From Golubevia sp. BC0850 (Eukaryota > Basidiomycota > Exobasidiomycetes > Golubeviales > Golubeviaceae), in contig JAAVVG010000007.1 in assembly GCA_012976225.1 (NCBI GenBank), positions 186,001 to 250,000 of the forward strand: a DNA stretch of 64,000 nucleotides, in the 5' to 3' direction. Both the position numbers and the translations under genes were made by a program. How positions within the stretch are numbered: position 1 is the first letter of the stretch; each line of letters opens with the position of its first letter. The notes below the pieces were generated by a model that worked only from the letters and a program-made list of their open reading frames with translations, did no database searches and was not told where the DNA came from. Positions 49,693 through 63,326 of this stretch are shown piece by piece.

Positions 49693-51404
49693 ATGCCCAA
49701 CGACACAGATCCTTCCACCAGAGCGATCTACGAATCCCTTTGCTCGTCAATCGGCCTCGAGCCTATGGGAGATAGACTGAAACTTCAAGGTCAGGATCCC
49801 GTCACTGCCTCTACCCATAGGATCGGAGACGCTACAGCTGCAGCGTTGGCGTTGCTAGGTACCTCGATGTCCTCTTTGCTCTACGAAAGAAGCGGTCTCT
49901 TGGACGAGATTCGTGTCTCCGTAGAGGACGCTATCCTTCAGCTCAGTGCAGCTTTCTTCACAACAGTGAATGATGTAGGTCTGATGAAGTTCTTTGAAGA
50001 TCCAAAGTTGTTTTCGGAAAGGTAGGTGATAGGACTTTCCTCCCTCTCTCCTTTTGCCTCTCCTTCCCTGCTCAATTTTTCTTGCTTTCCTCTCTCTATA
50101 TTCCATCCTACCTGTACCTGGTACTTCACCTCATACAGCGACTTCTATAAGGCAAAAGACGGACGCTTCGTCTTTCTCCTTCTCACCTATCCTCAACTTC
50201 GAAACGTGGCCTGTGAAATCCTAAATTGTCCTCCTTCCCGTCAACACTACCAGGAGGAGATCGCCAAGTGGGACGCGTTCGAGTTAGAGAGAAGTATCTA
50301 TGCTCAAGGAGGTTGCTGCATTGCAATTAGAAGTCGGGAGGAATGGAGAGACTCTGAAGTGGGCAAGGCAAGCATGGCCACTCCACTAATCTCAATCGAA
50401 AAGATTGGAGACTCAGTAGCAGAGCCACTTCCACCGCTTCCGAAGTCTGCTCAAGGAAAGGCCAAACCTCTAGAAGGAATCAAGATTCTAGACAATACTC
50501 ATGTCATCGCAGGACCAATGTCATCGCGGATCGGAACCGAACATGGAGCAGAATGTCTCCACATGTCTACCCCAGATCATCCCGATCCTGCTGCGATGGT
50601 CAACGAGACCTGCATCGGAAAGAAAAACGTTTTCTGTGATCTTCTCACAGAAGAGGGTCGTTCTGCGTTCTGGGGAGTTCTCAAAGAAGCAGACATCTAC
50701 GTCAGCTCTTATCTTTCACTCGACAAGAAAGGACTTTCAGTCGAACAGCTCATCAAGACAAGACCTGGACTCATCATTCTAGAGTATCATGGTTGGGACT
50801 TCAATGGAGAATGGGCCGAAAGAGGAGGTTTCGACCAGCTCGCTTGCAGGTGAGACGAAGCAACTGTCGCCATTTGAGGAACAAGAAGGGGTATACATTG
50901 ACATCTTTTCCATTGCTTCCTTCGTAGCGCAACTGGATTCGCAGCTGAAGAGGGAGGGTTTGATAACCCAAGGCTTCCACCTACCTATCTTCTTAACGAC
51001 TACCTGGCAGCAATTTTAGGATCAGCCGGCATGGTCGCAGCTCTTCAAAGGAGATCGAAAGAAGGTGGAAGCTATCGCGTCTGTCTCAGTGAGTTTGTTT
51101 CTAAATAAAGACGATTCGTAGTTGAGAGCTCGAACTCTCTTTCGTTCCCTTATCTCATTCCCTTCTCTTGACAGATCTGGCGAGAGTCTGTACTTGGGTT
51201 CAAGATCTGGGCTCTTTCCAACACTCGGAAGTCGAGCACCTTCCACCAGTCGATCACCAAGCACAACCTGGAATTCTGAAGACCGTCGAAGGTCCAGTTG
51301 GAACCACTCAGTACCTTCCAACTTGTGTCCACTACAAAGAAATTGGACTCAATCTTTCGGTGGGAGCTGAACCGCTGGGAGCTTCGAGATTCAAGTGGGC
51401 CTAG
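49693..51404 (+). CDS. Class III (CaiB/BaiF-type) CoA-transferase, two-half fungal form
   Basis: Four exons (49693-50021, 50139-50849, 50928-51088, 51175-51404) join in phase to 476 residues. The first half has SIYAQGGCCIAIRSREEW and LPKSAQGKAKPLEGIKIL; the second half starts the Rossmann-type repeat (ILDNTHVIAGPMSSRIG, NVFCDLLTEEGRSAF, EADIYVSSY) and continues with GFDQLACSATGF and PPTYLLNDYLAAILGSAGMVAAL. The Asp in LLNDYLAA sits where family III enzymes keep the aspartate that forms the acyl-anhydride intermediate. Such enzymes move CoA between acyl groups. No PTS1 is present at the C-terminus (RFKWA). It is convergent with the carboxylase beta gene (about 210 bases apart), which suggests a role in activating the same substrate (inference). 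Confidence 0.85.
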
Positions 51405-51612
51405 TTCTAAAATCTTAGATCGCCTTTCACCTCTTGCTTCAGAATCTGTCTTCCTTCCGTTGTTCCAAGTCTCGTCCTCGAGCTTTCCATCGAAATTCAT
51501 GCTTTCATTCTGTCTTTCACTCTGTCTTTTCCTTAAAAATTTCTTCTCATCAATTCAATCTAAAATAGTCTATTACAAATCTGAGAGTCACGAACGAGTC
51601 ACGTACGGCTTC

Positions 51613-54081
51613 TTACATTCTGGAAACTCCACCGAATCCTGGATTCCCTCTGATTTCTTCTTGAGCAAAAGTGGCAAGACAGAAGGCGACGACGTCCCTA
51701 GTGTCTCTGGGATCGATGAGTCCGTCATCCATCAGTCTGCTTGAAGTGTAGTAGGGATTAGACTCCTCTTCGACTTTGGACCTCAGCAGATCGGTTTTCT
51801 TCTGTTGCTTGACTTCGTCGATGACCTTTCCGCTACGAGCCGCGATATTACGGTCCACACTAAATGAAAGGTAGAAGAAGAGAAGATTAGACGACAGAAA
51901 AGAAGGGGTCTGCAGCAATAGAGTTGAAACTTTACTCACAGGTCCATGACTCCTGCCATTGCATCTGGTCCCATTACAGAGCATCTAGCTTGAGGCCATT
52001 GAAAGAGAAAACGAGCTCGGTAGACGCGTCCACACTGGGAGGAGAGGAGAAAGTGACGATGTCAGACTCAGAAACGGACCTCAACGTTACCTTCCCCAGC
52101 TAAGCCTCTCTGGACTTCAATGAAACGACTATAAAACATACCATAGCTGGGTTTGAGGCGCCAAATCTAAAGGACAGAAAAAGGCAGAAGAGGTGAGTAA
52201 GAAAAGAGGTGAGTAAGAAGTACTTAGGAGGCGAAAGGCCCAGACCCTTCGTGGCGGATGGCTGTTCCTAAATTGTATCCTCTCGGCACCTCCGCTTCGC
52301 TCAATCTATTCTACAGTTATAACACAAACGAATCATACTCACGAAGCTCCCACCAAGATAGAGATGTGTGGAACGCGAGAATTTGAGACGGCGTTGATAA
52401 GTAGTGAGCCATACTTGATCGATCCAGCCTTCTCGTATTCTGCCCCAACCATAAAACCCGAGACATTATGGAGGAACAGAATTGGACTGTTGTTTTGATT
52501 GCAAAGTCTGATAAATTGAGTCGCTTTTTGGGCGTCGGAGGGCTGTTGAAAGAAAGATAGAGGGGGGAAGAAAGCAACTAGGTTCAGAATTGAAAAAAGA
52601 CAGAGGTCACTTTCGAGGTCTCGATTGAACTCACATTTAAGACTCCGTTGTTTCCAAGGAATCCAAGTGGATATCCAGCGACATAACCAAATCCACAGAC
52701 AGTGTTGGATCCGTAGAGAGGCTTGAAAGCGGAGAATCTTGAGCCGTCAGTAATCCTAGCCACGAGATGGTTGATGTCCCAAGGTTTCTTGTAGTTCGCT
52801 TGAGCAACGTCGAACAAGGTCTCCATCGTGTGAAGTGGAAGGAGTGGATCCCATTTTGGAGGTTGAAGAGCTTGAGGTCTTCCCATTGAATCAGACCAAT
52901 TGAGAGTTGCTACCCAATATCTAGCGAACTTGATAGCCTCCACCTCGTTTCTAGCCAGAGCATCAGAAACACCTGAGATTTTCGAATGCAGATCTGCGGA
53001 ACCGAGCTGGTCAGCAGTTGATTCTTCCCCAGTAGCTAATTTAACGATAGGTGGCCCTCCTAGGAAGAGTTTGGCAGCGTTCTTGACCATTATCTTGAGA
53101 GGGGGAGGGGGGAAGTGTCAATTTTCCTCGATCCTTTTCTACCAAATAAGGCCAACTCACAACCATATCACTCATTCCTTCAAGATAGGGTACAAACAGA
53201 GAGCATAAGGTCAGAAAACGATCAAAAGTGGAACTGTATTGAACGAGGACGTGCACGGCAATGTTCCACCGAACAAGGGGAAGGAAAAAGACGCTCTCCC
53301 CCCCCTTTGTTGAACTCAGTTCCTCGTCTCACCTGGAGTATAGGCTCCGGCCGCCGGACACTCTCCGAAGACAACCGAGCAGGTTGGGATCCCATCTTCA
53401 GACCGACGTGCCAGATCATAAAATTGAGCTGCACCTTGATGGAACTCGAACTGGTGACGGAGATTGACCCCAGCAGAGTGTACTAAGAAGACTATTGGAA
53501 TCCTGTTCTCATGAGCGATCTGACCTAGTCGTTGTATCTTCTGTATTTGTGCCCTGTTCGCAGTAGCCCCTTGAAGGAGGCATAGTTGAAGAAAGGTGAG
53601 AAGACCTGACCGAAAGTAGTGTTTGAAGACACATACTTACCTTGTATTGTGGGTATATGTGCAATACACATAGTCAAAGTTGACCTGTCAATAAGATGAG
53701 AAGAGCGTCAGCGAAAGCGTGGTACACGAGACCGAATCGATTTACTCACGAAACCAATCCGATTCCTCCTACGACGCTCCCTGAAGGGGTGCAGTCCTTT
53801 TGTCCATATCCAGCAAAGGTACATAGCTCTAGGAAAGGAGAGTCTTGATCCAAAAGAAGTGTGAGTCTGTCACGAGCTAGAAGTTGACCTCTAGAAAGAT
53901 GAAGATGTTGACTTTTGGCTCCACCTTGATGGATGACTTCTTGGGTCTTTTTATTCAAGTCTTCAACGGTGGCTAGATTCTCTTCCCTGTTAGCGAGGAC
54001 TGCATCGTCGATGGAGATGGGGGGAAGTTCCATTACTGGAAACCTGAGAGCCGGATGAGCATTCTGAACTTGTTGATGCAT
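51613..54081 (-). CDS. Acyl-CoA carboxylase beta (carboxyltransferase) subunit, MCCB-like, PTS1-like tail
   Basis: Nine exons (54081-53750, 53684-53641, 53569-53333, 53177-53161, 53093-52635, 52542-52343, 52166-52142, 52034-51940, 51859-51613) give 551 residues, close to human MCCC2 (563). Exons of 17 and 25 bases are needed to keep the frame. Family blocks: ARDRLTLLLDQDSPFLEL, FGECPAAGAYTPGMSDMV (equivalent of GSCTAGGAYVPAM), FLGGPPIVKLATGEE, GSADLHSKISGVSD, ITDGSRF, GFLGNNGVLN, FLHNVSGFMVG, FGASNPAMCGRVY, FQWPQARCSVMG, ESNPYYTSSRLMDDG and DPRDTRDV. It transfers carboxylate from biotin to an acyl-CoA, with the alpha subunit at 56.7-59.8 kb. No mitochondrial presequence is evident, and the end is Ser-Arg-Met where MCCB usually has Phe-Arg-Met. 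It is more divergent from MCCB than a plain orthologue would be, so the substrate is open. Confidence 0.85.
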
Positions 54082-54885
54082 AGTGCTTGATCGAGAACCA
54101 GCAATAGTTGGGTTGATGAATCGTAAGTTTTGAAAGAAGAGAGAAAGTTGGAGAGAAAGTGATAAGATGATGGATACGAAAGTGAAAGGAAATAATGAAA
54201 TAAATCTTCAACTTTTGACGATGCAAGCAGGACGGAACGTGAGCAAAGATGAAAGTTAGATTGATTCCCTCGCATGATGGACATAATTAGACTAGATCTT
54301 TCTTATCTAGATTCTCACAGAAGGCTGGATGGAGTTCACCTTGTACGTAGGTGAGGCGAGAAGAAGATACGTCAGATAACTTGGCCGGAAAATTCTTGTC
54401 TACCTAGGCGGTACGCCAAAGGAAGGCGCAAGATAAGGGTTCGCTTCCTGCGCCACGATTCCCTTTTCATTTTGATTGAAATTCTAATTCAGCCATCGCT
54501 ACTTTGTTGGTCATCGGGAGTGAAAGAGAGCGTTCCGAGCTGCGCACAGTTTGTCCTGCTGGTATTTTGGCTGGCCGGCGGCAACGCAGGGCAAATCTTC
54601 CTCTTCACTTGCACGTTCTGACATTCATTATTCATGCGAAAGACTACTGTGAGCTTCGAATTTTGCAGGAGAGAAATCCGCAGAGAGGGCTTGAAAGTCA
54701 CAGTTGGCTCGAGCGTTGGGACTGGGTCCTCAGGCCTCAGAAGGCAGATTCAGCGCAAGAGAAGATGATTCTAAGGTCTATGATTGTATTCAAAAGATAC
54801 AGAAAGACAAACTGAGAAATGTGAGAGAAATGTTTAAAATGAACCGAAAGTGATTAATGGGAAAGAGAATTCGTATGAGGAGGTC
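54082..54885. other. Spacer between carboxylase beta and hydrolase genes
   Basis: About 800 bases holding the beta promoter and the hydrolase 3' flank. A plus-strand frame (54504-54815) shows no family features. No RNA gene recognised. Confidence 0.45.
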
Positions 54886-56043
54886 TCAGAGTTTTGAAGG
54901 TAGATCAATTCCTTTTAGGCCCATGCCATTCAATCTTATCTCTCTGGTTGTCAATGATTTAGATCCAGATGAACCAGAATTGATTTGAACATGATACCAA
55001 TCACGAATTGTGTTTGCGACCTCTTGGTAATGTCCTCTGAACATGTGGTCTGCGTCTTCAACTAAATGTAGCTTGACGTTTTGTTTAGGATTCTTTTGAA
55101 GAGCATCTACGTATGCGAATGAGTCTTGAAGAGGTACGGTGTCGTCTGACTTTCCATGAACAATGAGACTGAGGACGAAGGAGGGAAAAAAGGTGTCGAT
55201 GGATGAGAAGAAAGAAGTTGCTGTCAGTTCAATTTCAAAAACGAAGTTAAGTTCAAACCAAATTCTTTATCGAACCACAAGAAGGAAGATTCGAGCCTAA
55301 ACTGACACTCACACTTTAGTCTCGGCAGGGAATTTCTTGACGATCTCATGGATTGGGAAACGGGAGAACCTTTCCACCCCAGAACGTTGAATCTCGAATT
55401 CTTTCAGCTCTCCAGATACCTTAACTCTCAATCTAAATACACCATCTTTTTCTAAAGCCTCCTTCTCCTTTCTGTTCCTGCTTTGAGCACGAGATAGATC
55501 CCAACGCGAAGAGAGAGAGACGAAGTGTCTGGGCTTGTCCAACAAATCCCTGTTAAATTCTTCACAGGAAGAGAAATAAGTCCAAGCTGCTAATGCTCCT
55601 CTTGAATGGGCGATAATCACATCTACTTCATAACCTAGATCGTTTTGTAAGAATTTGATGACCGAGCGAATGTCTTGCAGATCATTCAAAACCCCATCCA
55701 CTTTCCACTCTCCTCCAGTTTCTCCGTTCCCTCTGAAGTCGAAGCGGAAGCTGTCAATTGGAAGTTGAGCTGATAGCTCTCTATGGTAGCTTTGGTTCTT
55801 GTGGGCTAGAATTCCATGAAGGATCAGGGCTATCTTCTGAGAAGGATTTCCTAGCTTCTTGATGTTGAGGAGACCAGCGATGTCGACCCCTTTCTCTGAG
55901 GATGGAATGTGAATTTTTGCTTCTTGATCGGAATGATAGAGATTGGGGATTGAGCCTTGAAGAGTGGCTTTTGGGATCGAAATGATAGCTGGATTCTCAT
56001 GTGAGATGATTGGAGTGTGGAAGAGCTCTTGGTGGGTCGACAT
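54886..56043 (-). CDS. Alpha/beta hydrolase with SKL peroxisomal signal
   Basis: Two exons (56043-55313, 55168-54886) join in phase 2 to 337 residues. The fold markers are ALILHGILAHKN (oxyanion HG), DFRGNGETGGEW, the nucleophile elbow IIAHSRGALAAW, the acid in HGKSDDTVPL and the histidine in EDADHMF, so the catalytic triad is complete. The protein ends PSKL, a canonical PTS1, and the stop follows directly. It belongs to a serine aminopeptidase-like/esterase family; candidate roles are an acyl-CoA thioesterase or ester hydrolase, but the sequence does not decide. It lies between the two carboxylase subunit genes, transcribed in the same direction as beta and divergent from alpha (about 700 bases), which supports a shared pathway. 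Confidence 0.82.
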
Positions 56044-56748
56044 TGTTGCGAAGAGAGATGCTGATCTGGGTTGGAAGAGGTTGGAAGATGGGATGGAAAG
56101 GAAGATGTTCGAGTAAGAAGTCCGAAGGAAAGCGCAGACTTAATTCGGAGAACAGTTCAGTTGTCATGTAACGTAAAAGTCAATTTCACTCTCCTGCTCG
56201 TCGGGTCAATTCGCGTGAAAGAACTTTCTCGGATTTCTCCTGCTGATCTTTCTGTCTACGTAATCGAAACCTTACTGCACGTTATCGCTTCTGGGTCCAA
56301 AAATACGAGAGGTGGTATGTAGGATGTGGATTGGGAAAAATGAAGTTCTTGAAAAGATAAGGTCGCGACCGCGTTTCGTTGGCCGCCACGTAGATTAAAT
56401 GTTGGCGTACCGGCGTACCTCGAAGTTTGCCTGCGCCTTCGAAACGTTTTGTTTTCCATCCCGTCATGACGATAAACAAAATGGGCAGGAACTTCCTGCT
56501 TGTCCCACTGCCTTCAAAAAGAAGATCGTGAAAGATCTCGATGTCTTTACCGTCTCGGACCCAAAAAGAGAAGCCAACCTAACTTTCCACTTCAAGCATT
56601 TTTTCACTTCTTCTAAAGATTCCTCCTCCCAACTTCTAACTTCTCAGCAGTCCTCAGAAGTGAGTCCGAAGAAAGCTTCCTAGAGTTTTGAGCTTTTGCG
56701 ACGACTAACTTCCTCTTTCCCTTTTTTTCTATAGACGACAGTCTTTAA
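56044..56748 (+). promoter_or_regulatory. Divergent region between hydrolase and carboxylase alpha, with a possible spliced upstream ORF
   Basis: An ATG at 56399 opens a frame through 56659. There a gtgagt donor can pair with the acceptor ending at 56734. After splicing this frame ends at a TGA whose bases overlap the alpha ATG (ATGA at 56749). A stop lies directly before the alpha ATG in its own frame, so the alpha start at 56749 is secure. The upstream frame may be a leader ORF or chance. Confidence 0.4.
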
Positions 56749-59700
56749 ATGATATCTTATCTACCGCCATGCCCACCAACTTTCAGAAGAGAAGATCTCT
56801 ACATCGCTCCTACTGGTCCAAAGCCTCTCAAAAGAGTTCTCATCGCCAACAGAGGGGAGATCGCATTACGAATCATCCGTACATGTCAACAGCAAGGTGT
56901 TGAAACGATCGCCGTCTACTCAGACGTAGATTCTGATGCTCCTTATGTCCTCAGTGCCACGCTTTCTGTCTTTATAGGATCCATGGAAGGTGACATCAAC
57001 CCTTACATGAACGGAGACCTTCTAATCAAGACAGCAATCACTCACCAAGCTGATGCAATCCACCCAGGATACGGATATCTCAGCGAGAACGCGGACTTCG
57101 CTGATGCTGTTCAGGCTACCTCTCGACTCATCTTCTTAGGTCCTCAAGGTGAGACGATGAGACAGATCGGAGAAAAAAGCCGCTCCAAGCAGCTTCTTCG
57201 CAAAGCCTTTGGAGCGAAGGCGCCACTGGTACCAGGATACGACGGTTCGGATCAGAGCGACGAGGTTCTTCAAGCGGAAGCTATCAATATCGGATTTCCT
57301 CTCATGATCAAAGCCAGTTTCGGTGGAGGAGGAAGAGGAATGCGCATTGTTCGCGACGTTTCCAATCTTGGTTCTGAGATATCTCGTGCTCGTTCTGAAG
57401 CTCAGAGATATTTCGGCTCTCCTACTCTCTTGATGGAGAAGTACATCGAAGAAGGTAAACACATCGAGGTCCAGATTTTCGGAGACGACCATGGAAATGT
57501 CTATGCTCTTGGTGAGCGTGAGTGCAGCGTTCAGAGGCGTCATCAGAAGGTGAGTTTCATGGATCGGTCTTGAATTGATACTGCGGTTGTCATTGTGGAT
57601 TCACCTCAGCAGTAACTGAGCTTAACTTTCTCTTTCCTTCTCTCAATCAGATCATCGAAGAGTCTCCAAGCGCCTGCCTCACCTCTAAGGTCCGTAAAAA
57701 TCTGTTCAAATCTGCTATCGAGATTGGAGCGCTCCTTTCGTATCGTGGAGCCGGAACTATCGAGTACATAGTCAAAGAGGACATGTTCTCTTTTCTAGAG
57801 GTCAATACTAGGTGAGAACTTGGTCGAGAACTTGAAAGTGAGGTGGAAAGAGAGTGGTGACGCGTTTCATTTATCACTTCTTCTGACATTGCCCACCCTT
57901 CATTCTCATTTCTCAGGCTTCAGGTCGAGCATCCCGTCACCGAAATGTGCACAGGACTCGATCTTGTCTCTCTTCAAATCTATGTTGGTGGCAACGGAGA
58001 TCTTTCGCTTCTACCTAACGTCGCAGACAATCAAGTTTGGGGACATTCAATTGAGTGTCGTCTATGCGCGGAAGAGCCTGGAGCCGTGAGTGTAGATTCA
58101 GGAGTGAGATTCCAATAGATTTTGGGACATTCAAAGCTGACAGACTTGTCATCTCCTCTACCATGTCAACCAGGATTTTGCCCCTAGAACAGGCACGATT
58201 CGAACTATGGCTGTTCCTACCCTTGCACAACCGGGAGTCAGGTTTGACACTGGAATCTCGACTGGATCGACAGTTTTAATCCATTTCGATGCCATGTTAG
58301 GAAAGCTCATCGTCCATTGTGAGTCCGGCCTGCCCTATGCCCTCTCGCTTCTTTCCCAGCAATTTGCTGACCAAGTCGGGATCCCTCTGCCTTTCTGATC
58401 CTTTTTCTCAGCCTCGACTCGTGAGCTAGCTATTCAGAAGATGCAACAGGTTCTTCAAAGCAGCGTTTTCATCGGAATTCCAACCAACACGACTTTCATG
58501 AGCTCCTGTCTGGCTCACTCTACCTTTATGGATGGGACCTACAACACTTCTTTCGTTCCAAAGAACCTCGATTGGCTTCTTCAAAGACCAGTCAATCTAT
58601 CCCGTTCCGCCTTTTGTTCCGTTGTCAATTCTCCCAACATTCCAATCGGAGCCATCGCTCCAGCCTTCCATTTATTCCAACATCTACGTACTCAACTTCA
58701 TCCAGCTCGTGCAGGTCTCAATCGTGGATTTAGACTCTCTCAACAGACCGACCTTTCCATCTTCTCACAAAAGGAGAACTACGTCGTCTCTCTACCTGAC
58801 GGTGGAAAGGAATGGGAGGTGATGGTCGAGTACAAGGGAGCCGGAGCCGGAGCCGATTCTACAGCCACTTTCGATCTTTCTCTTTGGATGAATCTTTCTG
58901 AATTCGCTGGTGAAGCTGCCGCTGAGGAAGTCACCAAGCGTTACGGTTCCAAGCTCAAACCAAAAGCTTTGGAAGCTCAGAAGAACAACGCAAGGAAGAC
59001 CGCTGGCTACTACGGAGCTCTACCCAATCGCGATGGTTTGGAAGGACGTAAACTCGGAGAATGGAATCTAGGAGTTAAGGAAGAAGATGTTACCCGAATC
59101 CGTTCCACTCTCATCTCTTCCGATGTTTCAGTAGCTTCTCTTCCCATTTCTGCGACCAGAAAACCCGAAGGAAATAACCGATGGATCAACGCTTCGATGA
59201 AGGTCGAGTTGAATGGATCTATGGCTCTCTATGTCATGTCGACTGATCATTCTTTCGAAGAGCACGAGACAGGACCTCAAGGTAAGTCTATTCTTAAGAT
59301 TCCGCTCCTTCAAAAAGGCGTCGACACTTACAGCCTTCATCCCCTTCGGTCCACAGTCGCCTGGCTTTGGTCTCCAACTCTAGCTGGACCTATCAAAGTA
59401 GTCAGAAAATGTCTTCGTGTCTACGCTGATGAGGTCCAAGTTGCTGATGAAGACGAAGCTGCCAAAGGAGCTTTTGTTACCCCCATGCCCGCCAAGGTTC
59501 TTCAACTAATGGTCAAGGAAGGAGAGAAAGTCGAAGCTGGACAGTGAGTATCAGTTGTTGAATCTCTTCCCAGGTAATAGTGGAATTGATCTCTTATCTC
59601 TCTTACGATTGACAGAGCTCTTCTCATCTGCGAATCGATGAAGATCGAGACCACCGTCAGAGCCTCCAAGAGTGGCTTCGTTTCTCTAAGTGCTAGAGCT

Positions 59701-59802
59701 GGAGACACTGTTCCACAAGGACGTGTTCTATGTTCGATCTCTGACCAAGAGATCGTTAAGAAGAGCTCAGATGCTGCTGGAAACCCTGAAAAGGCGATTT
59801 GA
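56749..59802 (+). CDS. Acyl-CoA carboxylase alpha subunit (biotin carboxylase plus biotin carrier)
   Basis: Six exons (56749-57549, 57651-57811, 57917-58085, 58174-58318, 58412-59543, 59616-59802) join in phase to 864 residues. Biotin carboxylase: [53 protein letters not shown] (ATP loop), [28 protein letters not shown] and [18 protein letters not shown]. The C-terminal biotin domain has [17 protein letters not shown] and the lysine in CESMKIE, where most relatives have AMKM. It hydrolyses ATP to carboxylate biotin for the beta subunit. It is about 140 residues longer than human MCCA/PCCA, the extra lying between the two domains. The start ([13 protein letters not shown]) does not look like a mitochondrial presequence. 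It may be an MCC paralogue or another acyl-CoA carboxylase. Confidence 0.87.
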
Positions 59803-60235: not shown

Positions 60236-62251
60236 CTAATGATGTAATTCTCCCTTCCTAGCCGCCTCAGCCACCTCGACCAAAACTCTAACCTGCGCAG
60301 CAACTCCCTTCAGAGTGTTCAAAACTTTTCCATTTCCTTCTGCAAAACCATATTCAACATAATCCAAACCCCATTTCTCAGCAAAAGGTCTCACGAACCT
60401 ATCTCTACATTCTCTTAAGTTGTGTCTTGGTAATCTTGGAAATAGATGATGAGTCACTTGGAATTGAAGACCTCCATGAATGAAATCTAAGAAAGGAGGA
60501 CAGAGCACATCCATGGTGGTTCTGATTTGACGTGAAGGGAAGGATTCTGAGAGTCCTAGATCTTGAGTTGATCTGGCGAAATGAGAGAGGACGATCTGTA
60601 GAGAAGAGAGAAAGAGGATGGGATATTAGAGGGAGACACGCAGAGAGAAGAAGAAGACATAGAGAGGTTGAAGGAAGTTACTGATGGTTGGAAAACTCAC
60701 CTGAACGTGCAATGGACTTGTAACGATATGACTTGTCAAAGTGTAAGCTAATTTCACTTTCCAACCTTGAATTCCAGCGATCACTATTCCACCAAACCAA
60801 CCCCAAAAGAGAACCAAACCCAAAACTTCAGCAAGCAACCATCTATCTCTCTTAGCTTTCAAAGCCAAGAAAGAATAAGAATTGGCATACAAATTGAATC
60901 TACCCAAAGACATGATTGGATAATAAAGATAATGTTGGAATTTGAGTAAGAAAAGTGAAGGAGCATCTAAAGCTATGAATCTACGATAATAAGTCGAGTA
61001 AAGGGAGAGTGAAAGATAGGAAGGAGTTGAGGATTTGGGTTGAGCTTGAGCTTGAGAGTCATTTGACTCTTTAATCTTTTCATCTGTTCTGTCAGTCTTC
61101 TGTTTTTCACCTTCCATCCAATCACCACCTACGAATCGATCACTTATAGCAAAGAAGGGCATGTGTTGAATATCAGGATCATGTTCAGGATGATTGGTAA
61201 CTAAATGATGAACGTCATGATTATCAGTCCACCAACCTATTGAAAGTCCACCAACGTAATCTGCTATGAAAACTCCTATGGCTCTATCTGCCCAATGAAT
61301 ATGTGTGATTCCTGAATGTCCAGAATCGTGAGCTGTGAAAGTTAGTTGATGCCATAGAAGACCTAAGAAGAGAGAGGAAAGTAGAAGTAGAGGGGTTGAT
61401 TGTTCTGAAGTTGAAGTTGCTGATTGATAGAAGTAGTAACTTAAATAGGCTAGAAATGAATAACGAAGGACTTCTCTGAAATAGCCAACTGGTTTTAGAT
61501 CGTACAGACCTGAAGCTGTCACTTCTTTGTGAAGTTCTAACCATGCGTTTGAGAGTTTGGATTCGTAGGAAGGTGAAACTAGGCTAGGTGGCGAGGGAGG
61601 TTCTAGTAAATAAACTGGAATTGGAAATGTCATTGGTCTGCTTTCAGATTCTTTAGAAGATTCAACTTTAAGAGGTTTAGAATCTCCAGCTAATAAATCA
61701 TCTACCGATCTCTCTTCCTCTTTCAAATCCAACTCCTTCCTTCTCTGATTCCACATTTCTAGTTGAGCGAATTGATTTTCTAGTTTACCATTTCTATAAC
61801 CTAATTGAACTGGGGGAGTCAAAGGTTTCCAAGCTGTAGCTGCCCATTCCGATTCGGATTCCTGATGACTATCCTTATCCTTATCCAACTGAATACTCAT
61901 CTCTTTCCTCCTTTTCAAATCATCTTGATCATACCAATCTTCTTCTCTAATCCAACCAATACAGAATCTTTTCATTCTCTGCAAAGTGAAATCTGAATGG
62001 TAAGCTTCGATTTCGCAAGTGGCATCTCTACCTACGAAGTGTAAGATGGCTAAATCACCACCTGGATGAGTTTTTAACCAAGAATCTAATTTGTAAACTC
62101 TTCTACGATGAAGAACTAAAGTTTGACCTTGGGAGATTAATTCAGCTAATCTACAACGTGACAATGGAACCGATTTTGTGGAAGTTGATGATGATTTGAG
62201 GGGTAAATTGGATGGAATTGAGGAGGTTGACGGTCCAGATCCGTCTGGCAT
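60236..62251 (-). CDS. Cytochrome b5-fused front-end desaturase (delta-8 sphingolipid type)
   Basis: Two exons (62251-60701, 60595-60236) give 636 residues. The N-terminal cytochrome b5 domain has the heme motif KTHPGGDLAI and YHSDF. The desaturase has three histidine boxes: HDSGH, HDVHH (in NHDVHHLVTNHPEHDPD) and QVTHH (Q-x-x-HH), the last typical of front-end desaturases. Hydrophobic segments surround the boxes (LLLLSSLFLGLLW; LGLVLFWGWFGGIVIAG). The architecture matches fungal delta-8 sphingolipid desaturases and acyl front-end desaturases in the ER. A Ser/Glu/Lys-rich linker (about residues 110-220) and an acidic loop after box 2 are extra. The fungal delta-8 enzyme, which makes 4,8-sphingadienine in glucosylceramide, is the best guess. 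Confidence 0.85.
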
Positions 62252-62495
62252 GATGAGAATTTGACAATAGATCTAACTTTGAGCAGTTAGAATAGAAGTA
62301 ATTGGAACTAGTCTTAAGGAGGAGTGGTTAAGAACAAGCTGCAGCAGCTGTGGCCAAACGTTGCTGTCTCCCTCTCACCGCACCACCACTTCTATCGTCA
62401 GCGTCAACTAACGTCAAACTACTTGAAAATCAACCTTCGGGAATTCAGCCTTTATCCTCCAGCCTCCCTCAACTTCCCCTTCCCTTCCCTTCAAG
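62252..62495. promoter_or_regulatory. Divergent promoter of desaturase and SmE
   Basis: 244 bases between the two ATGs. Pyrimidine-rich just before the SmE start (ccttcccttcccttcaag). No specific site assigned. Confidence 0.45.
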
Positions 62496-62869
62496 ATGTC
62501 AGCTCGTCAAAGGGTGATGGTTCAGCCCATCAATGTCATCTTCCGCTACCTTCAACAACAAACTCCTGTCTCCGTTTGGCTTTATGATAACTCCGATTTC
62601 AGGATTCAGGGGAAAATCGCAGGGTTCGATGAGTTCATGAACGTCGTCATGGCAGATGCTGAGGAAGTGTGGCAGGCAAAGGGTGACAAGGCTGAGAGGA
62701 GGGAAGAATTGGGTGAGTTGGAGTTGGGATAGTGAAAAGCTGCGTAGGTAGCGGATTTGACTTCGATACGAGGAGAAGGACCATCGAACAAATAAGCTAT
62801 CGGAAAGTCTGTAGGAATCTGATTTGGATTGGTGGAGAATGAAAGCTGAGATGAGGAGGGAAATCGGAT

Positions 62870-62919
<50 letters not shown>

Positions 62920-63326
62920 CTTTGCGACTCTTCCCCCGTCGCGTGCCAAGCGATTGAGCCGTCAGAGTTTCAAAAGATGTGGGCTTTGTAGAGCGCAGGG
63001 AGAAGGATCGGAGGAATGCCCTTCTGCTGAGACTTTCTACTGACCCTCCCCCATCTTCTGAACTCTCGTCTCTCTCTCTCTCTCTCTCTCTCGATCACCC
63101 CTCTTGCAGGTCGCATACTACTTAAAGGAGACAATATTGTGAGATTCAGATGACAAGCAGTTCGATTTCGAAGGGCTAGCATCGTTCAATCTCTCGAGCC
63201 TATCTACTGACTTCCCTTTGACCTTTCCTTCTCTTTCCTGCTCCTTCCTCTTCTCCCCTCAATCTTTTATCTCATCCCCTTTTCGAAATCCGTCACTTTC
63301 AGACATTAATTCAACCTCTAGTCTAA
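62496..63326 (+). CDS. SME1: Small nuclear ribonucleoprotein E (SmE)
   Basis: Three exons (62496-62712, 63110-63138, 63303-63326) give 89 residues, near the 92 of human SNRPE. Sm1 is clear: VMVQPINVIFRYLQQQTPVSVWLYDN, abbreviated as QPINVIFRYLQ, with FDEFMNVVMADAEEV. Sm2 is RILLKGDNI and the last exon completes GDNITLIQ, the SmE ending, in 24 bases (TLIQPLV). Without that exon the frame would end at a false stop (VRFR). SmE is part of the Sm ring on U1, U2, U4 and U5 snRNAs in the nucleus. The first intron is long (397 bases) and carries the CT repeat listed below. An insertion of several residues (WQAKGDKAERREEL) lies between Sm1 and Sm2, as usual. Confidence 0.93.
62871..62916 (+). repeat. 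(CT)23 microsatellite in the first SmE intron
   Basis: A pure 46-base CT run. A second, shorter CT run lies at 63069-63092 just before the acceptor of the same intron. Both are on the coding strand and pyrimidine-rich. Confidence 0.9.

Follow-up and report, generated by a model that had tools for sequence, protein, structure and literature searches.

A candidate peroxisomal acyl-CoA carboxylase, separate from methylcrotonyl-CoA carboxylase, in the basidiomycete Golubevia sp. BC0850

The subject of this study is a block of four genes in Golubevia sp. BC0850, two of which encode the alpha and beta subunits of a biotin-dependent acyl-CoA carboxylase whose identity and putative peroxisomal role are considered here. 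The block lies within a 64,000-nucleotide stretch of contig JAAVVG010000007.1 (C62:186001-250000), hereafter the window, which belongs to a genome assembly of 25.77 Mb in 64 contigs.

The gene block

Splice sites in the block were picked by eye and by homology, and the four spliced genes are intact, with all 18 of their introns (18/18) bounded by GT-AG. Protein tails are described below relative to the pattern taken for a type 1 peroxisomal targeting signal (PTS1), namely a C-terminal [SAC][KRH][LM].

49693-51404, + strand: class III CoA-transferase, 476 amino acids (aa), 4 exons (49693-50021, 50139-50849, 50928-51088, 51175-51404), ending KWA
51613-54081, - strand: carboxyltransferase beta subunit, 551 aa, 9 exons, ending GFGGVSRM (PTS1-type)
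51616-51624, - strand: codons of the final SRM of beta, with the stop codon at 51613-51615
54886-56043, - strand: alpha/beta hydrolase (cinnamoyl-esterase-like), 337 aa, 2 exons (55313-56043, 54886-55168), ending PSKL (PTS1)
56749-59802, + strand: biotin carboxylase / biotin carrier alpha subunit, 839 aa, 7 exons, biotin site ESMKIE, ending EKAI (no PTS1)

Domain searches agree with these models: the CoA-transferase matches CoA_transf_3 (PF02515) at 1.3e-37, beta matches Carboxyl_trans at 2.2e-110, alpha contains Biotin_carb_N, CPSase_L_D2, Biotin_carb_C and Biotin_lipoyl, and the hydrolase, whose gene sits amid the divergent beta and alpha genes, matches alpha/beta hydrolase families with Peptidase_S9 at the top (1e-10). 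Between them, alpha and beta hold the biotin carboxylase, biotin-carrier and carboxyltransferase domains, together with the biotinylation lysine of ESMKIE, that characterise a biotin-dependent acyl-CoA carboxylase. The four adjacent genes proposed in an initial annotation, made from the letters of the window alone, are thus borne out by a spliced model and a Pfam match for each. No in-frame methionine occurs within 60 codons upstream of any of the four starts, and an in-frame stop lies directly 5' of the alpha ATG. Neither window subunit shows a presequence on inspection and residue counts, with no predictor used, unlike the beta subunit of 3-methylcrotonyl-CoA carboxylase (MCC) encoded on contig C5 of the same genome; to that extent the lack of presequences on both subunits, also claimed initially, holds good.

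Placement of the carboxylase

A carboxyltransferase profile search of the genome recovered five gene regions: one each on C5 and C13, two on C11, and the window. The C5 beta has a presequence-like start, ends in GVYRM and carries the pocket phenylalanine and insertion of MCC, and an MCC-like alpha on C3, which groups with human MCC alpha (100/97), has a presequence-like stretch upstream; the genome therefore has a conventional MCC with its genes unlinked. The initial annotation had let its case depend on whether such a separate pair, with presequences, existed elsewhere in the genome, and it does. A second pair of the window's kind is found at C11:547.9-553.9k, where beta and alpha are divergent with 345 bp separating their starts. 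Identity between the window and C11 proteins is 58% for beta and 50% for alpha, and the C11 beta has the same GFGGVSRM tail. Residues 1-30 of the C11 alpha contain 3 arginines and no acidic residue, those arginines lying at the start of the conserved domain. At 839 and 872 aa both alphas exceed the usual length, to which no weight is given because the C3 MCC alpha of this fungus likewise has an extended stretch in that region. Elsewhere, C13:440-450k (L033) and C11:177-187k (L034) apparently hold two large genes of acetyl-CoA carboxylase type with biotin carboxylase and carboxyltransferase parts, judged by domain order only, and at C5:520.5-527.5k (L031) an extended open frame that includes a biotin carboxylase part was named by eye as urea-carboxylase-like.

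Phylogenetic comparison drew on the best 80 of 119 bacterial loci with relatives of beta (L049-L128), their phyla being assigned from the titles of database records. An 85-row beta tree was built without the fragments L123 and L125; a 41-row beta tree combined 27 of the 80 loci with seven plasmid beta loci (L137-L143) and seven others, and a separately made alpha tree had 34 rows, with an alpha match in 29 of 34 loci. The latter two were midpoint-rooted for drawing. In the 41-row tree the two fungal betas join 14 Bacteroidota rows (99/94), while MCC (100/99), geranyl-CoA carboxylase (GCC; 100/100) and a mostly Actinomycetota group (99/97) form groups of their own; in the alpha tree the fungal proteins join 11 Bacteroidota rows (100/97). 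Approximately unbiased (AU) tests reject a union of the fungal betas with MCC (p 0.0037) or with the fungus's own C5 MCC (p 5e-8), as well as one of the fungal alphas with its own C3 MCC alpha (p 0.0005), and do not reject a union of the betas with GCC (p 0.107), although the best tree separates them. Under the model used MCC is therefore excluded and GCC is not. The divergence of both subunits from MCC that had been suggested initially is thus upheld by the trees of both, and for beta also by its pocket residue; the contrary outcome, with both subunits inside fungal MCC, did not arise, and separation from GCC holds for beta in the best tree only. The placement of the window pair outside MCC can be regarded as firm. 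The best reading is that alpha and beta would constitute a third kind of acyl-CoA carboxylase, distinct from the fungus's MCC and not clearly orthologous to GCC, with its nearest relatives in Bacteroidota and others further off in Actinomycetota. Among seven genomes with a window-type carboxylase, two of the three actinobacterial ones also carry a beta 69% or 71% identical to that of Pseudomonas MCC, and all four from Bacteroidota each carry two betas at 48-51% identity to it.

The acyl pocket of beta points the same way. According to Jurado et al. (PMC4673880), MCC beta has Phe191 (human numbering) after a 3-residue insertion, GCC beta has Gly162, and wild-type GCC, with its glycine at this position, is very weak on 3-methylcrotonyl-CoA. 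By alignment, the window and C11 betas have glycine and no insertion, as in GCC, and the C5 beta has phenylalanine with the insertion. One must nevertheless consider that the pair might be a second, leucine-type MCC relocated to the peroxisome and acting on 3-methylcrotonyl-CoA: the architecture is the same, the long N-terminal part of beta is shared, matches in PDB are about as strong to MCC beta (2.3e-126) as to GCC beta (7.8e-126), and the product could be used by an HMG-CoA lyase that bears a PTS1 (below). Set against these likenesses are the AU tests, the missing phenylalanine and insertion, and the reported feebleness of a glycine-bearing GCC on this substrate. From mitochondrial MCC the pair also differs in showing no presequences, and the fungus has a separate copy of that enzyme. 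Leucine MCC is ruled out by tree and pocket residue as the identity of the window pair, and a relocated enzyme of that kind is improbable.

With GCC (AtuC/AtuF of Pseudomonas and relatives) the fungal pair shares an alpha made of biotin carboxylase, BT and biotin carboxyl carrier domains, a carboxyltransferase beta, the glycine at 162 and the lack of the MCC insertion; it differs in forming a separate clade in the best tree, in being eukaryotic and intron-rich, and in its SRM tail. With the acyl-CoA carboxylases of Bacteroidota and Actinomycetota, the former being nearest for both subunits, it shares a mostly glycine pocket and mostly xRM ends, and it differs in that none of the 79 readable bacterial beta ends is SRM and none of the 80 loci has a nearby match to the window CoA-transferase or hydrolase. 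PMC3199775 describes GCC activity as observed only in bacteria; fungal enzymes of this broad acyl-CoA carboxylase class had already been placed in trees earlier. In Histoplasma, according to PMC13343957, the proteins biotinylated endogenously are pyruvate carboxylase and MCC.

Tails, AtuA and HMG-CoA lyase

Two of the four block proteins fit the PTS1 pattern, as had been noted initially: beta with SRM, a tail common to its C11 paralog, and the hydrolase with SKL; KWA of the CoA-transferase and KAI of alpha do not. As a background, 6 of 443 stop-to-stop open reading frames that reach 100 aa or more, taken from the window and 18 other loci of the genome, fit the pattern, and 2 of these 6 are the block genes (3 of 6 if other genes discussed here are included). 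Bacterial betas allow the origin of the tail to be considered. Among the 79 readable ends of the 80 loci (L123, a fragment that lacks its end, was left out), 60 are FRM, 8 WRH, 5 YRM, 4 FRP, 1 FRE and 1 FRL, and serine at -3 occurs in none (0/79) and in both fungal betas. The fungal SRM is the common xRM tail with serine at -3, creating a PTS1-type end, and its presence in two pairs is most simply explained by one inherited change. Peroxisomal targeting is likely.

The company that these genes keep offers further clues to function. The sole region of the genome matching AtuA is C11:512.8-515.0k, on a different contig from the window and 33 kb from the C11 pair, and the fungal AtuA protein has a ferredoxin-like tail domain. 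At C11:510841-514962 (L038) the AtuA gene stands 0.3 kb from a divergent gene resembling ECI2, with a presequence-like start and an ASKL end; this gene was rejected as an ortholog of AtuE, since two of its exon pieces match 0 of 80 bacterial loci and its nearest PDB relative is ECI2. PMC5371717 and PMC3948071 list DUF1446 (AtuA) genes for Aspergillus nidulans and Moniliophthora, with no function given. In 36 of the 80 bacterial loci the retrieved flanking sequence contains a relative of the fungal AtuA; when only loci of 17 kb or more are counted, it is present in 27/32 from Actinomycetota and 4/14 from Bacteroidota. Acyl-CoA dehydrogenase matches lie near 46/80 loci and hydratase matches near 35-37/80. 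At L055 and L080, beta, alpha and AtuA (by match) stand with a hydratase and a dehydrogenase (by eye); at L050 beta and alpha occur without an AtuA match, and at L067 the frames are not clear and AtuA matches. Annotation in the plasmid records adds beta, alpha, AtuA and dehydrogenase in Rhodococcus (L137), beta, alpha, AtuA and hydratase in Dietzia (L142), and, in the GCC relative of Sphingobium (L139), beta, hydratase, alpha and AtuA in one gene run; AtuA is about 7 kb away in Mycolicibacterium (L143), and none lies in the annotated stretch of Tistrella L140 or Pseudoalteromonas L141. Azospirillum L138 is an MCC operon, in which HMG-CoA lyase is present and AtuA absent.

The only HMG-CoA lyase found in the fungal genome is at C22:859959-861331 (L130:1122-2494, minus strand). 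With MLPLALSLRSLAPRSLRPISRGW at its start and SSKL at its end, the protein looks as if it were targeted to both mitochondria and peroxisomes. Other matches of this kind were set aside: those on C55 and C6 look by eye like isopropylmalate and homocitrate synthases, that on C63 is pyruvate carboxylase by its domains, and the lyase query itself matches C22 only. When 12 queries from bacterial operons (ligase, thiolase, hydratases, dehydrogenases, HMG-CoA lyase and others) were run against the window and the 18 other loci, only acyl-CoA dehydrogenase-like pieces were recovered, in L037 (C11:495-505k). The strong link of the carboxylase to AtuA in Actinomycetota, together with the lack of a lyase match at all 80 bacterial loci, hints that AtuA may replace the lyase.

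These surroundings bear on whether the enzyme might instead be a promiscuous acyl-CoA carboxylase with another, non-isoprenoid substrate such as a short-chain, hydroxy or aromatic acyl-CoA. For the Bacteroidota and Actinomycetota relatives no substrate could be found, PMC3199775 gives these enzymes, those of fungi among them, no name more specific than acyl-CoA carboxylase, and the hydrolase next door resembles cinnamoyl esterases. However, acyl-CoA dehydrogenase, hydratase and AtuA beside many bacterial loci fit removal of a beta-methyl branch of the Atu type, and a substrate of this other sort is decidedly unlikely.

The proposed route and the evidence against it

The reading preferred here is that the pair carboxylates branched enoyl-CoA in the peroxisome by a GCC-like mechanism and represents a third kind beside MCC and clear GCC orthologs, a reading to which a probability of roughly 0.57 may be given; family, pocket residue, paralogous pair and PTS1-type tails are all legible in the sequence itself. 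In the proposed mechanism, alpha would carboxylate its own biotin using ATP and bicarbonate, and beta would move the carboxyl to the gamma position of a 3-methyl-2-enoyl-CoA larger than methylcrotonyl-CoA. A hydration step and then cleavage by a lyase would strip the blocking branch, so that beta-oxidation could proceed. Beta would enter by its PTS1 with alpha carried along, the later steps might fall to AtuA and to the HMG-CoA lyase with its presequence-like start and SKL, and the substrate would be branched and isoprenoid-like. A bulky branched enoyl-CoA is plausible as a substrate, with the odds somewhat in its favour. The neighbouring CoA-transferase could activate the acid, a role guessed from adjacency, and the hydrolase could free an ester or thioester, as adjacency and its own SKL suggest. 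If this reading is true, biotin-dependent carboxylation would enter peroxisomes, and fungi would have a route for degrading beta-methyl-branched acids that may help this one to digest methyl-branched (terpene-like) acids. A literature search found no paper describing a fungal PTS1-tagged biotin-dependent acyl-CoA carboxylase, which, with subscription journals mostly uncovered, is no proof of novelty.

A number of observations weigh against this reading. Firstly, the placement has its weak points: the union of the fungal betas with GCC survives the AU test, the fungal branch is long in both the alpha and beta trees, and many rows of the alpha tree, the C11 alpha included, are of odd amino-acid composition. 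Secondly, the pocket residue across the 80 bacterial loci is 71 Gly, 5 Ala, 1 Ser, 1 Thr, 1 Phe and 1 gap; glycine is thus general in the non-MCC group, so that it counts against an MCC pocket and names no substrate. Thirdly, alpha is without a PTS1, and of the seven plasmid betas two end in ARP and the GCC-like one of Sphingobium (L139:7971-9563) in ARL. This last tail satisfies the PTS1 pattern in a bacterium, which has no peroxisomes, and warns that the pattern can arise idly. Fourthly, the 33 kb linkage of AtuA to the C11 pair was spotted post hoc, with a chance of about 0.5% by simple arithmetic; of the 14 Bacteroidota loci with full flanks only those 4 have AtuA nearby, and the best 10 of 161 plasmid records matching the fungal AtuA are all proteobacterial, and AtuA and the carboxylase may thus differ in origin. 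The want of any HMG-CoA lyase match at the 80 loci belongs here too.

Further difficulty comes from the window beta itself, which is altered at 13 of 98 columns near-invariant across 38 other rows, compared with 5/98 in the C11 beta and 9/98 in the fungus's own MCC beta (from a crude model). Five of the changes (G172A, T197P, G199A, G434S and Y436P) fall in or near glycine-rich active-site loops, turning TAGGAY into PAAGAY and GAGNY into GASNP and altering the residue that follows the pocket glycine. Having lost active-site residues that C11 keeps, the window beta may be specialised or weakened, and this raises the alternative that the window pair is specialised or decaying, with a beta weak or altered in function, and that the C11 pair is the active one. 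Simple decay is countered by intact frames over the 18 introns of all four genes and by an alpha changed at only 1/76 near-invariant columns (2/76 in the C11 alpha), and this alternative is on the unlikely side.

Nor do the other two genes of the block travel with the carboxylase. A CoA-transferase profile finds C64, C7, C3 and the window in the genome and nothing at the C11 locus, a hydrolase search finds only the gene itself and C5:224k and again nothing at C11, and neither protein has a match at any of the 80 bacterial loci. A single four-gene pathway is weakly supported as a result and is best regarded as doubtful. The peroxisomal route offered in the initial annotation therefore keeps its carboxylase outside MCC and its PTS1-type tails, and its joining of the four genes into one pathway does not fare as well. 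That the genes are neighbours by chance, with alpha and beta alone cooperating, has a little under an even chance; the same absences speak for it, and against it stand the position of the hydrolase amid the divergent subunit genes, its own SKL, and the fact that the CoA-transferase is itself an acyl-CoA enzyme. More speculative, and unlikely as a whole, is a complete peroxisomal route, resembling acyclic terpene utilisation in bacteria, that would clear beta-methyl branches of isoprenoid acids, in which a Bacteroidota-like carboxylase was acquired, had its FRM tail turned into a PTS1 by a Phe-to-Ser change, was duplicated, and was joined at one copy by a CoA-transferase and a peroxisomal esterase.

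The CoA-transferase shares PF02515 with class III enzymes such as formyl-CoA transferase and YfdE, and differs in that the profile halves are swapped: residues 35-197 match profile positions 153-315, and residues 221-425 match positions 1-218. Bacterial CoA-transferases match the window protein in one piece, covering 99% and 100% at 33% and 29% identity and 83% at 45%, and thus the swapped layout is apparently that of some bacterial enzymes and not new. The aspartate of LLNDYLA, which we take to be the catalytic residue of the class, is aligned to aspartate in 2 of 3 printed alignments and lies one place off in the third. The nearest relatives of the hydrolase are cinnamoyl esterases.

The motif CCTCGG/CCGAGG, presumably a fatty-acid response motif, is absent from five upstream regions, and the sole 9-mer common to three of them is of low complexity. 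To the right of the block, at window positions 60236-62272 (- strand), lies a gene that by its motifs, judged by eye, resembles a cytochrome b5-fused fatty-acid or sphingolipid desaturase, followed at 62499-63094 by a simple GA-type repeat that gives long RERERE runs in the minus frames.

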